Position numbers and translations under genes: made by a program. Of a stretch of DNA of 42,774 nt, positions 2-12,871 are shown one piece after another. Within the stretch, counting starts at the first letter, position 1; every line of letters begins with the position of its first letter. Source of the DNA: Dehalococcoidia bacterium (GTDB lineage: Bacteria > Chloroflexota > Dehalococcoidia > GIF9 > AB-539-J10); assembly GCA_030665785.1 (NCBI GenBank), contig DAOUZA010000004.1:1-42774 (forward strand). Direction: 5' to 3'. The notes under the pieces were generated by a model that ran no database searches, was not told where the DNA came from, and saw only the letters and a program-made list of their open reading frames with translations.

Positions 2-622
2 ACTCACCATCATTTTGACCACACACGGGATTTAGTCACTCTTGGTTACAATGCTGCTTTATGGGATGGTCAAGTTAAAGTCTATGCTCTATCTGAAACA
101 CTAAACGTTGTTATTCCATGCCTTCTTGATGGCAAGATATATGCTAATCTGCTTGAATATCCCTCTAAAAAAAGACCCGCACTTCAGTTCGAGACTATTG
201 AGCCATATAAGGAAGCGAATATTCAAGGGTACAAGATTTTGGCATTACCGGTGAAACATAATACCCCCACCGTTGGTTATCAAGTTGCCTCTCCTGAGGG
301 AAAGAAATTGTTTTATACCAGTGATACCGGTCCCGGGCTATCTGATTGCTGGGAGCATATTTCTCCAGATTTACTTATCTGCGAGTCTTCCCTTCCAAAT
401 ATGTTGGGAGATTTTGCCAGGAAAGCTGGGCATCTTACTCCACAACTGCTGAAAGACGAGCTTATCCAGTTCAAGCAGCTTAAAGGTTATTTGCCAAAGG
501 TCATCGTTATTCATATTGCTATTTCCTATGAACAGCAGCTTAGAGAGGAAGTGGCCCAGGTAGCTAAGGAGCTGGGAGCCGATATAAACCCGGGCCACGA
601 AGATATGAGGGTGGTGTTATAG
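2..622 (+). CDS. MBL-fold metallohydrolase (RNase Z-like), 5' truncated by window edge
   Basis: Frame of ORF 239..622 stays open to base 2 and encodes THHHFDHTRDLVTLG, an HxHxDH metallo-beta-lactamase motif; downstream FYTSDTGPG and AGHLTP are consistent. Confidence 0.8.
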   Translation, partial: THHHFDHTRDLVTLGYNAALWDGQVKVYALSETLNVVIPCLLDGKIYANLLEYPSKKRPALQFETIEPYKEANIQGYKILALPVKHNTPTVGYQVASPEGKKLFYTSDTGPGLSDCWEHISPDLLICESSLPNMLGDFARKAGHLTPQLLKDELIQFKQLKGYLPKVIVIHIAISYEQQLREEVAQVAKELGADINPGHEDMRVVL

Positions 623-623
623 A

Positions 624-1985
624 TTAGCCTACCTTTGGTAGCTCAGCCAGCGCCTCCTCTATTTTTTCATCAGGATAGGCATAATCCTGGAGTTTACCTG
701 AGAAGTAAGCATCATAAGCAGCCATATCAACATGACCATGGCCGCTATGAGCTATCAGGATGGTTTTTGACTCACCTGATTCCCGACATTTCAACGCTTC
801 ATCAATTGCCACTTTAATGCAATGATTTGTCTCCGGTGCGCTGATAATACCCTCAGTGCGGGCGAAAGTCACTCCCGCTTTGAAGGTATCAAGCTGATGC
901 TCAGCCCTGGCTTCAACAAGACCCAATCTATTCAGGTGGCAGATGATGGGTGCCATTCCATGATAGCGCAATCCTCCAGCATGGATTGGAGGTGGAATAA
1001 AGCCATGCCCCAGGGTAAACATTTTAATCAGGGGAGTTAGGCCAGCTTCATCACCGAAGTCATAGGCGTATGGGCCTTTGGTCACGGTAGGACAACTTGC
1101 AGGCTCGACATTGATGATGCGTAAGTCCGGCTTCGTCCCATCAATTTTATCCTTGACAAAGGGCAAAAACAGCCCGGCGAAGTTCGAGCCACCGCCAATA
1201 CAGCCGACGATAATATCGGGGTAGGCATCCGCCTTCTCCATTAGCTTTTTCGCCTCCAGCCCATTGACAGTTTGATGCAGCAGAACGTGGTTGAGCACGC
1301 TGCCCAGGGAATAATGAGTATCATCACGAGACACGCAATCCTCTACAGCCTCACTAATGGCAAGACCCAGGCTGCCGGGACAATCGGGGTCCTTTGCCAG
1401 CATATCTCGCCCTACCTTGGTATCCTCACTCGGACTGGGTACACATTTAGCGCCCCAGGTCTCCATCATCACTCTGCGGTAAGGCTTCTGGTCATAGCTA
1501 ATCCTGACCATGTAAACTTTGATCTCGATGCCGAAGCAAGCGCCGCCGAAGGATAGAGCACTTCCCCACTGACCGGCTCCAGTCTCGGTGGTGATGCGAT
1601 TTACCCCCTCTTGCTTGTTGTAATATGCCTGGGCTACAGCAGTGTTGGGCTTATGGCTCCCCGGGGGACTCACACCTTCATATTTGTAGAAAATCTTGGC
1701 CGGCGTGTCCAGAGCCTTCTCTAATCGGTGTGCCCGAAATAGTGTTGTCGGTCTCCATAGCTGGTATATATCGCGCACCTCCTCGGGTATTTCAATCCAC
1801 CGCTCAGTGCTTACCTCTTGCTTGATTAACTCCATGGGGAATAGAGGTGCCAAATCATCAGGGGTGACTGGCTTTCCAGTAGCTGGGTGCAAGACTGGTG
1901 GCAGTGGCTCGGGCAAATCAGCCTGGATATTGTACCAGTACCTTGGTATCTCCTCTTCATCAAGGGTAAACTTTGTTCTTTCCAT
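624..1985 (-). CDS. trpB: TrpB-like PLP-dependent enzyme (tryptophan synthase beta, TrpB2 type)
   Basis: 453 aa; [11 protein letters not shown]-lysine region, [22 protein letters not shown]; strong SD GAAGGAGG before ATG; Trp T-box upstream. Confidence 0.92.
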
Positions 1986-2034
1986 TTTTACCTCCTTCGT
2001 TTAGTTAATTTAGTTGTTCGTTAATTTTTACTCT

Positions 2035-2067
2035 TCATATTCGGCGCCATGTCTTAATATTAAACAT
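2035..2067 (-). other. Micro-ORF (MFNIKTWRRI) between T-box terminator and trpB-like gene
   Basis: AAGGAGG SD seven bases before ATG; 10 sense codons including one TGG; stop about 50 nt before the trpB start. Confidence 0.4.
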
Positions 2068-2095
2068 AATCAAACCTCCTTCAGCATATATAAAA

Positions 2096-2122
2096 AGCCT
2101 CTCGCCAAGGGGCGAGAGGCTT
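2096..2122 (-). terminator. Intrinsic terminator of the T-box leader
   Basis: Near-perfect GC-rich stem followed by T-run immediately after the T-box sequence. Confidence 0.9.
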
Positions 2123-2385
2123 AACTTTCGCGGTGCCACCCTATTTCAGTCTTACGACTATCTCTTTTCAGGTACGGCTCAACTTAAGAGCGATACCCTG
2201 AGCTTTTAACGGTGCTCTACCGGCAAAGCCTACTCAGCTTCATGTCCTTTCGGTTTGCAGCTCCCAGGTCCATTCTAGCCTTGCGCAAGTATCGGTTTAC
2301 ACCTTACCCGACTCTCTGAACTCCACCTCAGGCTATACTAATCCTGTTCCTAGCCTTTCACCTATTCAATTCTATTTATTATTCT
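2096..2385 (-). promoter_or_regulatory. T-box leader, predicted tRNA-Trp-responsive
   Basis: Minus strand has AGAGAG...GGTG...GAATGGACCTGGGAG (specifier TGG at 2270..2272), T-box sequence AGGGTGGCACCGCGA (2128..2142), and terminator GCCTCTCGCCccttGGCGAGAGGCTTTTTAT. Confidence 0.95.
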
Positions 2386-2485
2386 ATTTGTTGGGTTCAC
2401 CTTTGTCAAGGGGACCTGATTGACAGGTTCGGGGATTTTAGGTAGAGTGTCTGAATATTGAAATAGGGGGTGTGATATTAAAACA

Positions 2486-3862
2486 GTGAAAGTAGGCGGG
2501 TGTGGCATGATGTGGGGTGACCTTATCCAGCCTTCAGTTGAGATGGCTGAGAAGGCTGATGTGCACTATCAATGTTACGATTTCCTCGCTGAATTTACTA
2601 TGTCACAGCTTTATCGTTTGAAACAAAGAAGTCATTTCTTGGGTTACCCCACCGACATTGTGGAGTGGAATAAGCAGCTTTTGCCTATCATCAGTAAGAA
2701 AGGCATCAAGCTCATTTCCAATGGTGGAGGAGCTAATCCAGAGATAGCTGCTGATGCGATATTGATGCTAGCCCAACAATTGAAGGTGCCCCTAAAGCTG
2801 GGAGTCGTTACTGGCGACGATGTGCTTGATACTATAAAGAGGCTTCGCTCGGAGGGACTTAAATTCCCCAACACGGATACCGGGGAGGAGGATATTACCT
2901 CCATCGAAGATAAGTTGATGGGCGCTTATGCCTATATCGGTGCTGACCGGATTATCGAGGCTCTTAAGGAGGGATGTGATGAGGTAGTGGGGGGTAGGTT
3001 CTCTGATAATGCTTTATGCGTTGGGCCAATGATGTACGAGTTTGGCTGGGAATATAAGGAACCTTACTGGAATAAGATTGGTGCCGCCATAACTACGGGA
3101 CACATAATTGAATGCTCCCAGTTATGTTGCGGTGCAATGAGCAGCATATGGCGGGAGATTCCTGAGCCGTGGCATCCCGGTTATCCTATTATCGAGATGA
3201 ATGAGGATGGCACTGCGGTAATCACCAAGACGCCTGACACGGGTGGTTTGGTGAACCGCCAAACAATCAGGGAGCAGCTGGTCTACGAGATTCTCGACCC
3301 ACAAAATTATATAATGCCCGATGGAGTTGCTGATTTTACTACTTTGCACCTTGAGGATGCAGGTCCGAACAGGGTAAGGATTACCAACATGACCGGAAAA
3401 CCAAGACCGGACAAACTGAAGGTAGGGATAGTCTTTCACGGTGGTTTTCTGTTCGACGTAACTGTCCATATTATCTGGCCTGATGTTCTGGAGAAGGCGA
3501 GGTTGTGTAAGAAGCATTTTCAGGAATGGCTTAAGTGGGCTAATATGCATCCTATAGAATGGGAGATTCAGATTAACGGTGTTGATATGTGTTTAGGTCC
3601 CACTGTTTCCATAGACGAGATAGAGGAAAAATATGGGAAGGATATTCCTGAAATAGGGCTAAGGTTTGCTACCAAGTGGCAGACTCGTGAAGAAGCGGAG
3701 TTCTTCAAAAAGGATTTTGGAAGGGTTTGGTCAATTTTCCCTGGTTCCCCATTCGGACAACACCTTCCCACCAATCCGATTCGAGCAGTAGCGTTCTGGC
3801 CAACGCTTATCCCTGGGAGCGAAGTTCATCCTGTATTGGCTATAAAGGAAAGTAAGCTGTAG
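2486..3862 (+). CDS. AtuA-like (DUF1446) acyclic terpene utilisation family protein
   Basis: 458 aa, GTG start; GGCGMMWGD, SNGGGANPE, GADRIIEAL resemble the DUF1446/AtuA domain. Confidence 0.8.
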   Translation: MKVGGCGMMWGDLIQPSVEMAEKADVHYQCYDFLAEFTMSQLYRLKQRSHFLGYPTDIVEWNKQLLPIISKKGIKLISNGGGANPEIAADAILMLAQQLKVPLKLGVVTGDDVLDTIKRLRSEGLKFPNTDTGEEDITSIEDKLMGAYAYIGADRIIEALKEGCDEVVGGRFSDNALCVGPMMYEFGWEYKEPYWNKIGAAITTGHIIECSQLCCGAMSSIWREIPEPWHPGYPIIEMNEDGTAVITKTPDTGGLVNRQTIREQLVYEILDPQNYIMPDGVADFTTLHLEDAGPNRVRITNMTGKPRPDKLKVGIVFHGGFLFDVTVHIIWPDVLEKARLCKKHFQEWLKWANMHPIEWEIQINGVDMCLGPTVSIDEIEEKYGKDIPEIGLRFATKWQTREEAEFFKKDFGRVWSIFPGSPFGQHLPTNPIRAVAFWPTLIPGSEVHPVLAIKESKL

Positions 3863-9977: not shown

Positions 9978-10475
9978 TTAAGGTGAGGGTGAAAAGAACC
10001 CTCCAATGAAGTCAAATTCCTCAGGAAGAAGCGCTAATAGCAACGGGAATCCCTTCATCACTGTTGCTGCCACCGTAGACTGTGCCACAGCAGCTTCCAC
10101 GCCGGGCATATATTTGCACAAAATGGCAAGCACGGCAGCACATAGCATACTGCCCATAAAAGCGCCCAGAATAAACCCGATTACCCTGTCCACCCAGCCA
10201 AAGGGCAAAGCATGAACCATTTTAGCCACAACCCAGCCAACCACACTGGCGACAATTATCGTGACTAACAGGATAATGGCATAGGCAGCTATTACTGACC
10301 ATGTAGCGCCTTCCGCGGAAAGCTTTAACGCAAGCCCTTGATAAAAATGCCCCGCTAGGGCTATCCCCCCTACCAACCCCGCAATCCCGAATAACGCCTT
10401 GATAAATCCTTGCCACAACCCTAACAGCCCAAACAAGATGGTGACAGCTATAATGGCTATATCAACCCAGTTCAT
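9978..10475 (-). CDS. CvpA-family membrane protein
   Basis: 165 aa, N-terminal MNWVDIAIIAVTILFGLLGLWQGFI and WVDRVIGFILG are CvpA-like. Confidence 0.82.
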   Translation of the reverse strand: MNWVDIAIIAVTILFGLLGLWQGFIKALFGIAGLVGGIALAGHFYQGLALKLSAEGATWSVIAAYAIILLVTIIVASVVGWVVAKMVHALPFGWVDRVIGFILGAFMGSMLCAAVLAILCKYMPGVEAAVAQSTVAATVMKGFPLLLALLPEEFDFIGGFFSPSP

Positions 10476-10662: not shown

Positions 10663-11070
10663 TCATGTCAATCTTTTCAACACCGCCTTTTGAATTACAG
10701 AAAATCGGTCTTTAACTCCAAAGGCCTTATACAGACTTTCCGTTAGAGAACCCTGTGGATAGTTTGTTTTCTCCTGTATTGCCATAAGCTCTGTCACTAC
10801 AAGTAAAAACTCTACAGTGAATTCTCCGACTTTATCTAAGTCTTTAAATGGTTCGATATGCTCCGGTTTGAAAAACTGAAGAGTTGGCGGAAATGAATCT
10901 ATGGGTTTTATTTGGCTGAGCATTGTTAAGATATGGTCTTTCAGCTTTAAGGCTAACGAAGGGTTATGAGCATACTTGACATACATCTCTATAATTAAGT
11001 GAACATGTGCGGGTGTGCGCTCCCTCTTATTTGGCTCTCTGAATTTCACCCCCGATATTATCTTCTTCAC
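10663..11070 (-). CDS. Hypothetical protein, 135 aa, last gene of the overlapping cassette
   Basis: Overlaps the preceding ORF by 44 nt; no family recognised. Confidence 0.65.
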   Translation of the reverse strand: MKKIISGVKFREPNKRERTPAHVHLIIEMYVKYAHNPSLALKLKDHILTMLSQIKPIDSFPPTLQFFKPEHIEPFKDLDKVGEFTVEFLLVVTELMAIQEKTNYPQGSLTESLYKAFGVKDRFSVIQKAVLKRLT

Positions 11071-11224
11071 CAGAAATTTCTGTCATCAATCCTGATATTT
11101 CGTTCAAAACCCATTTGCGACCACACTCACAATCTCCTCGATATTCATTCTGATACTGACCTCCGTAGACTTCGAGTTCAACTTCTTTTCCACACATACA
11201 TCTAATTGTCATTTTTTGCTCCAT
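11027..11224 (-). CDS. Small Cys-rich (zinc-ribbon-like) protein
   Basis: 65 aa with CMCG ... CECG pairs; starts 7 nt after the nuclease stop. Confidence 0.6.
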   Translation of the reverse strand: MEQKMTIRCMCGKEVELEVYGGQYQNEYRGDCECGRKWVLNEISGLMTEISGEEDNIGGEIQRAK

Positions 11225-11231
11225 ATTTCCT

Positions 11232-12209
11232 TTACCCTCTTAACGGCAAAAGTTGGAAATTCGACTTTAACTCCTCAAAAGAATATTCCTGTGTTTTATC
11301 AGTTTGACCAAAGGAATATACCAAACACTTTATTCCCTTGTTCTCGGCCTCCTGCTGAACTTTTTTAGAAAAATCTTGAGCTATCAAAATCCCCAATACA
11401 CATTCTTCGCCTATTTCATACACATAGTTCCCTAATTGTTCAATATCTTGAGGTTTGGCACTTCCAGTTTTAACCTCCACAATGATTTTTCTGGCGTAAC
11501 CAGTAGGTATACAATCTTTGATGAGAATGTCTATATGTCCTTCAGCTAACGCTTTTTCACCAAGAACTTCAAAATCTTTTGCTTGAAGATTATTCAAACC
11601 AAAAGAATCAAATAAAGCTTGGAGATCTGCATTTTGGGATAAGTGTTGCCTTATTAAAGATTGAAGAATAAATTCTTGAAAATGGAAGACCTCTGGTGAG
11701 GATGCAAGGCTTCTGTTCCAAGTGAGCATAGGAGTGAACATCTCGTAGTTATTGATTGTTAAATTATCCACGGGCCTCTTGTAAAGAATTCCCATCTGAG
11801 AGACTGATTGAAGGGTAGTTTGATCTGCTTGGAAATGAGTTTTCCTATAGCCACCCCTTAAAAGTAAATTCTCAGCCACGTAAGCAAATTCGGGTCTAAC
11901 CATAGACTCGATAAACTCACGAAGTGGCTTTAGATGAACACGAAAAGGGAAATAATAAGTTTTGCCTGACATCCTAAAGGTTACAGAAGGCCAGGGGGGA
12001 ATTGCCTCCGCATTCTTTATAGCATCCTTTTTAATAACTTCGTAAAGATTAAAAACTTTTGCCCCATATAGAAATGAAATAAAATCACCTTCCTGAATCT
12101 CCACAAATGTCCACAATCCATTTATACTATTAGTGAAGCCTGCCAGTGCATATTTAATGCATAAATCTAAATTTATTTTATTTGAAACTGAAATTAGGAA
12201 ATATGCCAT
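11232..12209 (-). CDS. PD-(D/E)XK endonuclease with N-terminal PUA/EVE-like domain
   Basis: 325 aa; C-terminal EGHIDILIKD...KIIVEVKTG...QLGNYV nuclease core; N-terminal segment (GLWTFVEIQEGDFISFLYGAKVFNLYEV) resembles EVE/PUA-like folds. Confidence 0.7.
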   Translation of the reverse strand: MAYFLISVSNKINLDLCIKYALAGFTNSINGLWTFVEIQEGDFISFLYGAKVFNLYEVIKKDAIKNAEAIPPWPSVTFRMSGKTYYFPFRVHLKPLREFIESMVRPEFAYVAENLLLRGGYRKTHFQADQTTLQSVSQMGILYKRPVDNLTINNYEMFTPMLTWNRSLASSPEVFHFQEFILQSLIRQHLSQNADLQALFDSFGLNNLQAKDFEVLGEKALAEGHIDILIKDCIPTGYARKIIVEVKTGSAKPQDIEQLGNYVYEIGEECVLGILIAQDFSKKVQQEAENKGIKCLVYSFGQTDKTQEYSFEELKSNFQLLPLRG

Positions 12210-12871
12210 GATAAATCACCTTCTTTAGAATCAGTATAATGGATAATGTTTGCGTAAGGAGGATGAGCACAGATTAGATCAATGGAGTTATCTTCTATAA
12301 AAGATAACTCTCTAGCATCGCCAACTGACAACTCAGGCTCATAAATTTGAAGGTGCTTTTCCCCATCAGTAAAGGTGAGTTGTTGCGACAACGCATTAAA
12401 ATCTACATTCCTTTTTGCCAACTCAATAGATTTATCATTTATGTCAAAGGCTATGCCCTTTCTGCCCAAAAGTTTACATTCTACAGCAGTCGTTCCAGCA
12501 CCACAGAAATAATCTAAAACCAATTCGCCGACGTTTGAATATTTGAGGATCACGTTCCGAGGGATATAAGGCGACCAGTTCCCCCTGTATTCTCCACTAT
12601 GAGTTGCCCAATCCCCTCTTTGCTTGAAACTCCAAACTGTGGTTTGTTCTTCCTTAAAATTTTTGGGATAGAGTGTCTTTATTTCTTTAGAAACCTTCAA
12701 GGCGCTAATATTGAGCCCTTGTGATCTGGTAATAAGTCGCTCAATATATCTAAATGTAACCCCGTATTTCTGACCAATTTCTAAATCGGGAGTTCCTCTT
12801 GCCTTTTCCTGCAAGATTGCTTCTTGGATTTCTCCTTCAGTTTTGAAGCTTACTTTTTGATTGCTCACCAT
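12194..12871 (-). CDS. DNA amino-methyltransferase (N4/N6 type), possibly C-terminally truncated
   Basis: DYFCGAGTTAVECKLLGRKGIAFDI (motif I) and DLICAHPPYANIIHYTDS (motif IV); ends shortly after motif IV. Confidence 0.78.
   Translation of the reverse strand: MVSNQKVSFKTEGEIQEAILQEKARGTPDLEIGQKYGVTFRYIERLITRSQGLNISALKVSKEIKTLYPKNFKEEQTTVWSFKQRGDWATHSGEYRGNWSPYIPRNVILKYSNVGELVLDYFCGAGTTAVECKLLGRKGIAFDINDKSIELAKRNVDFNALSQQLTFTDGEKHLQIYEPELSVGDARELSFIEDNSIDLICAHPPYANIIHYTDSKEGDLSWHIS

Follow-up and report, generated by a model that had tools for sequence, protein, structure and literature searches.

The window analyzed here, a stretch of 42,774 nucleotides, is part of a 1.03-Mb genome assembly of 64 contigs (G000). 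It carries four minus-strand ORFs encoding, in the order of transcription, a 225-aa protein resembling amino-methyltransferases (MTases), a 325-aa nuclease, a 65-aa Cys-rich protein and a 135-aa protein (Table 1). A first-pass annotation had placed these ORFs at 10663-12871, where all four are indeed found, and had proposed that they form an undescribed modification-dependent or restriction system in which the two small genes would be accessory components. Do the four genes constitute such a system, and if not, how did the nuclease come to lie between its neighbors?

Table 1. Coordinates of the features discussed in the text.
Feature	Position	Strand	Remark
Amino-MTase remnant, N6_N4 type, PDLC03376 family	12194..12871	-	codons 1 to ~221 of a 518-aa protein
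Nuclease, 325 aa: predicted YTH/EVE-like reader domain and NucS/EndoMS-like PD-(D/E)XK domain	11232..12209	-	
N-terminal YTH/EVE-like domain, residues 1-165	11715..12209	-	predicted fold
Candidate m6A pocket codons	N13 12173-12171, F25 12137-12135, W73 11993-11991	-	manual alignment to YTHDC1
PD-(D/E)XK core, about residues 215-300	11311..11567	-	D227, E245, K247, Q258, Y262
PD-(D/E)XK codons	D227 11531-11529, E245 11477-11475, K247 11471-11469	-	
Cys-rich 65-aa ORF	11027..11224	-	CxCG...CxCG, zinc-ribbon-like
135-aa ORF, 5'-truncated remnant of the MTase partner gene	10663..11070	-	homologous part 10675-11049
Replacing cassette, 1160 bp (nuclease and Cys-rich gene)	11050..12209	-	missing from intact L097

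The first ORF (METHYLTRANSFERASE) is derived from an amino-MTase, as had been claimed (Pfam N6_N4_Mtase, 1.5e-16), but it lacks its 3' part. The match to the best-scoring profile, PADLOC MTase_II PDLC03376 (2.1e-48), covers only positions 3-152 of 249. The fragment keeps motif I (DYFCGAGTT) and motif IV (HPPY), and everything downstream is gone. Intact relatives were recovered from other Chloroflexota genomes, with lengths of 518 aa (L097), 297 aa (L099) and 482 aa (L100). The frame of the remnant tracks L097 up to residue ~221 (...HPPYANIIHYTDSKEGDLS) and then enters the start codon of the nuclease. The catalytic fold has lost its second half, which makes an active truncated enzyme unlikely. 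We found no sign of relaxed selection between the remnant and L097 (dN/dS = 0.06); thus the truncation is recent, the flank was renewed by recombination, or the fragment was retained for some other reason. In a related locus, L007, the remnant has decayed further, with a frameshift and two stops near the junction. The L097 MTase (1411-2967, plus strand) also has a C-terminal extension of ~200 aa that resembles a partial MTase repeat, with a second TTVW motif, and is not present in the 297-aa relatives.

The 135-aa ORF exists as described, but it is a 5'-truncated copy of a longer gene: it corresponds to residues 58-182 (81% identity), roughly two thirds of the protein at its C-terminal end, and the first ~57 codons are lost. 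In L097, L099 and L100 this partner gene lies directly 3' of the MTase, overlapping it by 4-10 nt in L097 and L099. It encodes 185 aa in L097 and 156 aa in L099, and is split by a frameshift in L100. Scans of the 135-aa ORF and its partner against Pfam and PADLOC gave no match, and a fold prediction of the L097 partner from four sequences was poor (pLDDT 52); the partner may be the original restriction enzyme or an accessory. Intact relatives of the window-type MTase also occur in operons with a D12 MTase, two of which include a DpnII endonuclease (PF04556, 3.3e-94 in L104 and 4.7e-109 in L131). In the window, a gene for a CvpA-like membrane protein (9978-10475, minus strand) adjoins the restriction remnant; in L130 it stands on the other side, and this may be a common landing site.

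Comparison with L097 at the base level accounted for both truncations. By blastn, the window aligns with L097 in two blocks, 12881-12210 (78.6%) and 11049-10675 (75.3%), with no match between them. Because only these flanking blocks align, the 1160 bp that contain the nuclease and the Cys-rich gene replace 1065 bp of L097, which correspond to MTase codons ~222-518 and partner codons 1-57. The left edge of the replacement is the nuclease start codon, homology with L097 ending at 12210. The right edge (11049/11050) falls inside the Cys-rich ORF, whose last ~8 residues are partner DNA read out of frame. The window, L007 and L019 have the left junction in common, so that a misassembly in a single genome does not explain it. 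In L135, which comes from a second species of the window's genus, the Cys-rich gene adjoins a partner remnant at the contig end. Judged by these alignments, the flanking MTase and 135-aa genes are scars and not parts of a system. The proposed four-gene defence system was therefore rejected by the comparison with L097, L099 and L100, in which MTase and partner adjoin with no nuclease between them, and a type II pair is likewise contradicted by an MTase cut at ~221 of 518 codons.

The nuclease itself stood up to scrutiny. Its C-terminal half is NucS/EndoMS-like both by sequence (NucS_C, 1e-6) and by predicted fold, in agreement with the PD-(D/E)XK assignment made at first, and it shows the catalytic signature of NucS_C (D, ExK, QxxxY). 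D227, E245, K247 and Y262 do not vary among 51 full-length relatives, and Q258 hardly does; the PD-(D/E)XK site is intact. The matches to EndoMS/NucS span only about 110 columns, all C-terminal; the N-terminal dimerisation/DNA-binding domain of NucS was not found, and this half of the nuclease matches the YTH fold instead.

An AlphaFold model of the nuclease was predicted with high scores (pLDDT 95, pTM 0.91). Among its top Foldseek matches were EndoMS/NucS, MspJI and AspBHI, together with VcaM4I and numerous YTH domains, some of them in complex with m6A. YTHDC1, Mmi1 and YTHDF2 dominated the matches to the reader domain, with E values of ~1e-3 and target-normalised TM scores of 0.5-0.62, which makes the YTH assignment a statement about fold. 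The N-terminal 165 residues had no sequence match among PDB chains at E<=10 and no YTH or EVE match in Pfam, and comparison with an EVE (PF01878) profile of 10 EVE sequences by hhalign gave a probability of 0.1%. The PUA/EVE-like N terminus claimed initially thus holds at the fold level, since YTH domains and VcaM4I, an EVE enzyme, are among the matches of the model, but not at the level of sequence profiles. Accordingly, the N-terminal half is predicted to adopt a YTH/EVE-type fold of the PUA superfamily, and its absence, which would have spoken against the earlier reading, was not observed in the model. In an alignment made by hand along the order of strands and helices, N13, F25 and W73, which are kept in 46, 50 and 51 of the 51 relatives, respectively, fall on N367, W377 and W428 of YTHDC1. 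These three YTHDC1 residues bind m6A (PMC6112328), and N13, F25 and W73 may therefore be regarded as a candidate m6A pocket in the predicted domain. Because the nuclease is joined to a domain that resembles readers of modified bases, "modification-dependent" is still the best functional reading, and m6A the probable specificity.

We then looked at the distribution of the family. A genome scan with the single protein found no relatives; a scan of genome contigs with a query alignment of five sequences recovered 68 loci, or 69 with the window. Both bacteria and archaea are among the hosts, of which many are thermophiles; several of the close relatives come from Dehalococcoidia MAGs. The nuclease is present in 5 of 84 genomes of the order and in 2 of 399 genomes of a phylum sample. 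Collections of plasmids, phages and IMG/VR yielded no match to it, and a phage or plasmid origin was rejected on this ground. In 49 of the 69 loci (e.g., L008, L009 and L017) there is no recognisable MTase sequence near the nuclease; Caldicoprobacter (L008) and Thermovorax provide examples, and the cultured carriers include Caldicoprobacter oshimai DSM 21659 and Thermovorax subterraneus DSM 21563. Since the remaining loci involve three MTase families, constant pairing with one of them was not found. The nuclease, being solitary in most loci, would thus act without a partner MTase.

The small genes were no more constant. The Cys-rich ORF is real, and its relatives adjoin the nuclease in two other loci, L007 and L013; this amounts to 3 of 69 loci with the window, and a further relative occurs without the nuclease (L134). 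Where the 135-aa ORF accompanies the nuclease (the window, L007 and L013), it is no more than a remnant. The small ORFs are therefore not conserved together with the nuclease, which refutes their proposed role as accessory components. A small co-directional gene does follow the nuclease in 26 of the 60 loci with enough downstream sequence, and these genes belong to four unrelated families (c3 in 16 loci, c6 in 5, c8 in 3 and c13 in 3). In 15 of its 16 loci, c3 (an undescribed family of ~81 aa, MKKRLFLFLTPDGVTYSS...; L028, L041 and L053 among others) begins 4 nt inside the nuclease gene, and one member scanned against Pfam had no match. Given this overlap in 15 loci and other families elsewhere, translational coupling with some small protein appears common while the family changes. 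A conserved small partner was rejected on the strength of the four unrelated families and of the Cys-rich gene found alone; the small genes are optional at most and not core parts.

If the MTase in the window is a scar, similar scars may be present beside other members of the family. We searched the 69 loci with a panel of MTases, covering 117 kb within 1 kb of the nuclease and 344 kb of farther flank. MTase sequence was detected within 1 kb of the nuclease in 20 of the 69 loci, compared with a single weak match in the farther flank. Nineteen of these 20 MTases are broken; only that of L056, on the opposite strand, appears intact. The start of the nuclease cuts the MTase at codon ~221 in the window, L007 and L019, and at codons ~39 (L015), ~83 (L022), ~110 (L053), ~243 (L028) and ~303 (L011) elsewhere, the L011 remnant having an in-frame stop as well. 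The L010 MTase is a C-terminal scrap, those of L021 and L027 lack their 5' end and lie downstream of the nuclease, and those of L061 and L065 are broken and in the opposite orientation. Three families are hit: the N6_N4/PDLC03376 family; D12 enzymes resembling DpnM (L041, L054, L066 and L073; for L054, Pfam 6.3e-17 and best PDB match DpnM 2dpm, 1.6e-15); and CcrM/DpnA-like enzymes (L020 and L071, PDLC03371 5e-19). Of the 19 loci with a broken MTase, 14 retain an intact nuclease frame, which in L015 is open to the contig end. It is damaged too in L019, L054, L065 and L073, and runs off the contig in L071. In L073, from an archaeon of the Archaeoglobi, the nuclease stops after ~70 codons, and a frame for an integrase-core-like transposase lies just behind it on the opposite strand. 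Sequencing errors could account for single-base lesions in MAGs, but hardly for the truncations.

When the presence of an MTase remnant was mapped on a tree of 51 nucleases, the label required 11 changes, at least 8 of them being forced by well-supported branches, and it was as scattered as shuffled labels. With no fewer changes than shuffled labels, the association with MTases arose many times.

Two further loci concern other nucleases. On contig 36 of the window's genome (L129, 276-2247, minus strand), an MTase without its last ~38 residues, which ends after motif I by comparison with L085, abuts a 356-aa nuclease composed of a PD-(D/E)XK domain (YhcG_C-like) and a winged helix, unrelated to the window nuclease. 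At L130/L105 (G102; 428-2070, minus strand), the MTase, closely related to that of the window, breaks off at codon ~192; next come a 296-aa protein (Forkhead-like winged-helix match, weak REase_II), a 73-aa ORF and a small gene of family c13, which is also found beside the nuclease in other loci.

Taken together, we favor, with a probability of roughly 60%, the view that the window carries a solitary, probably m6A-dependent restriction nuclease of the type IV or DpnI-like kind, which landed in and destroyed loci of adenine methylation. Its YTH/EVE-like N-terminal domain would read a modified base, most likely N6-methyladenine, and the NucS-like PD-(D/E)XK domain would then cut the modified, foreign DNA, with no need for a partner MTase. 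In the window, the cassette of nuclease and Cys-rich gene has replaced the 3' part of the MTase and the 5' part of its partner, and the same kind of displacement has happened many times and to several MTase families. As to why METHYLTRANSFERASES, the simplest account is that the nuclease attacks DNA with the mark made by the displaced MTases. A nuclease cutting methyl-marked DNA would persist only where the MTase is dead, and insertion into the MTase gene, from which recombinants would survive, would be one way to reach this state. Two of the three displaced families, D12 and CcrM/DpnA-like, are adenine MTases. A general lack of adenine MTases in the nuclease genomes, which we looked for as a sign of such incompatibility, was not seen: 44 of 50 host genomes have other DNA MTase genes above the N6_N4 cut-off, and intact D12 MTases occur in three. 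Because most carriers have other DNA MTases, an incompatibility can concern only particular motifs. Our comparisons establish the anatomy of the locus, the replacement, its recurrence and the conservation of the active site, along with a predicted fold; from these we infer m6A as the ligand, the cleavage of modified DNA and a displacement caused by epigenetic incompatibility.

The main rival holds that the remnants are nothing but a permissive landing site and that the nuclease has no conflict with the MTase. Defence genes generally cluster, and defence islands and decayed restriction loci would take up new defence genes; in the same genome, moreover, the truncated MTase at L129 has a different nuclease next to it. 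However, 19 of the 20 MTases within 1 kb are broken, three families are hit, one neighbor only is intact, and the nuclease often directly abuts the cut MTase. We thus hold a mere landing site to be fairly unlikely, though a serious contender.

It is somewhat less probable still that the enzyme is modification-dependent with a reader for 5mC, 5hmC, 4mC or a hypermodified phage base in place of m6A. The readers of modified cytosine VcaM4I (EVE), MspJI and AspBHI are also in the Foldseek list, N6_N4-type MTases can be cytosine-N4 enzymes, and EVE and YTH folds are difficult to distinguish in prokaryotes (PMC7641849). Against this, YTH structures dominate the matches of the reader domain, the N13/F25/W73 pattern of the manual alignment fits an m6A pocket, and adenine MTases make up two of the three displaced families.

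A repair or structure-specific nuclease, that is, a NucS/EndoMS-like cutter of mismatched or branched DNA with a PUA-like RNA- or DNA-binding domain and no role in defence, would explain why the catalytic half is closest to EndoMS/NucS. We consider it improbable, since the distribution is patchy (5 of 84 and 2 of 399 genomes) with transfer across domains, the gene is sited in restriction loci, and the N-terminal domain of NucS is missing. Finally, the earlier reading, in which an MTase, a nuclease and two accessory proteins would make up a working restriction-modification operon, draws on the gene order, the tight spacing and an open MTase frame with past purifying selection, but it is hardly credible with an MTase cut after motif IV, a 135-aa gene truncated at its 5' end, a nuclease mostly found without MTase, and intact relatives of both flanking genes that adjoin without it.

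Which known enzymes does the favored m6A-dependent nuclease resemble? VcaM4I (EVE-HNH), MspJI and AspBHI (SRA-like domain and PD-(D/E)XK) and the McrB of Thermococcus gammatolerans (YTH, 6mA) likewise combine a reader fold with a nuclease and, like the window nuclease in our sequence comparisons, stand alone without a cognate MTase. The window reader differs from theirs in being YTH-like by fold only, and the nuclease half is NucS/EndoMS-like and not of the HNH, Mrr or McrC type. The union of a modified-base reader with a nuclease domain, by which type IV enzymes are recognized, is therefore seen here at the fold level only. The YTH domain of T. gammatolerans McrB reads 6mA (PMC12707154), and YTH-like domains fused to PD-(D/E)XK nucleases have been noted in prokaryotes, mostly archaea, by Bell et al. 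2020 (PMC7641849). These fusions follow the same domain logic as the window nuclease and probably belong to the same broad class; NucS does not appear in that article, and in the passages covered displacement of MTases is not among what is described. As far as these two sources go, the reader-nuclease kind is already known and the window family is a variant of it. EndoMS/NucS, a mismatch endonuclease, shares the catalytic domain (NucS_C; 5gke, 2vld) and differs in N-terminal domain, genomic setting and distribution.

Streptococcus pneumoniae has DpnI, which depends on m6A, and DpnII, which forms it, as alternative cassettes (PMC12707154, PMC3573125). By analogy, an m6A-dependent nuclease and an m6A MTase may be alternatives at restriction loci here too, and the MTases displaced are DpnM-like, CcrM/DpnA-like or kin of the MTases in DpnII operons. 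However, DpnI joins PD-(D/E)XK to a winged helix, an unrelated reader, whereas nucleases of the window family sit inside truncated MTase genes in many lineages. Pectobacterium offers a documented case, that of PcaRCI and PcaRCII, in which methylation by a restriction-modification system clashes within the cell with an endonuclease that depends on methylation (PMC8989522). In that case the promoter of the nuclease is silenced, which ends the conflict, whereas here the MTase is the broken partner. A full-text literature search combining YTH, NucS and restriction returned only papers on hepatitis B.

We tentatively extend our view to the whole family, as a possibility and not as a conclusion: a widespread family of YTH-like/NucS-like, m6A-dependent nucleases in bacteria and archaea may spread by replacing adenine-MTase genes, and a nuclease abutting a decapitated MTase may be a general signature of methyl-targeting nucleases. 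This pattern also occurs with the winged-helix nucleases of L129, in the window's genome, and L130 (G102). To our knowledge, N6-methyladenine in DNA has few known readers. If our reading is true, solitary m6A-directed nucleases from a family rich in thermophiles would be useful as a tool and would also add a new component to defence. The repeated wrecking of adjoining adenine MTases would then amount to a natural experiment on epigenetic conflict, in which the target of a nuclease is predicted from what it destroys. The locus is also a caution: neatly ordered MTase, nuclease and small genes need not form a system and may be a scar.
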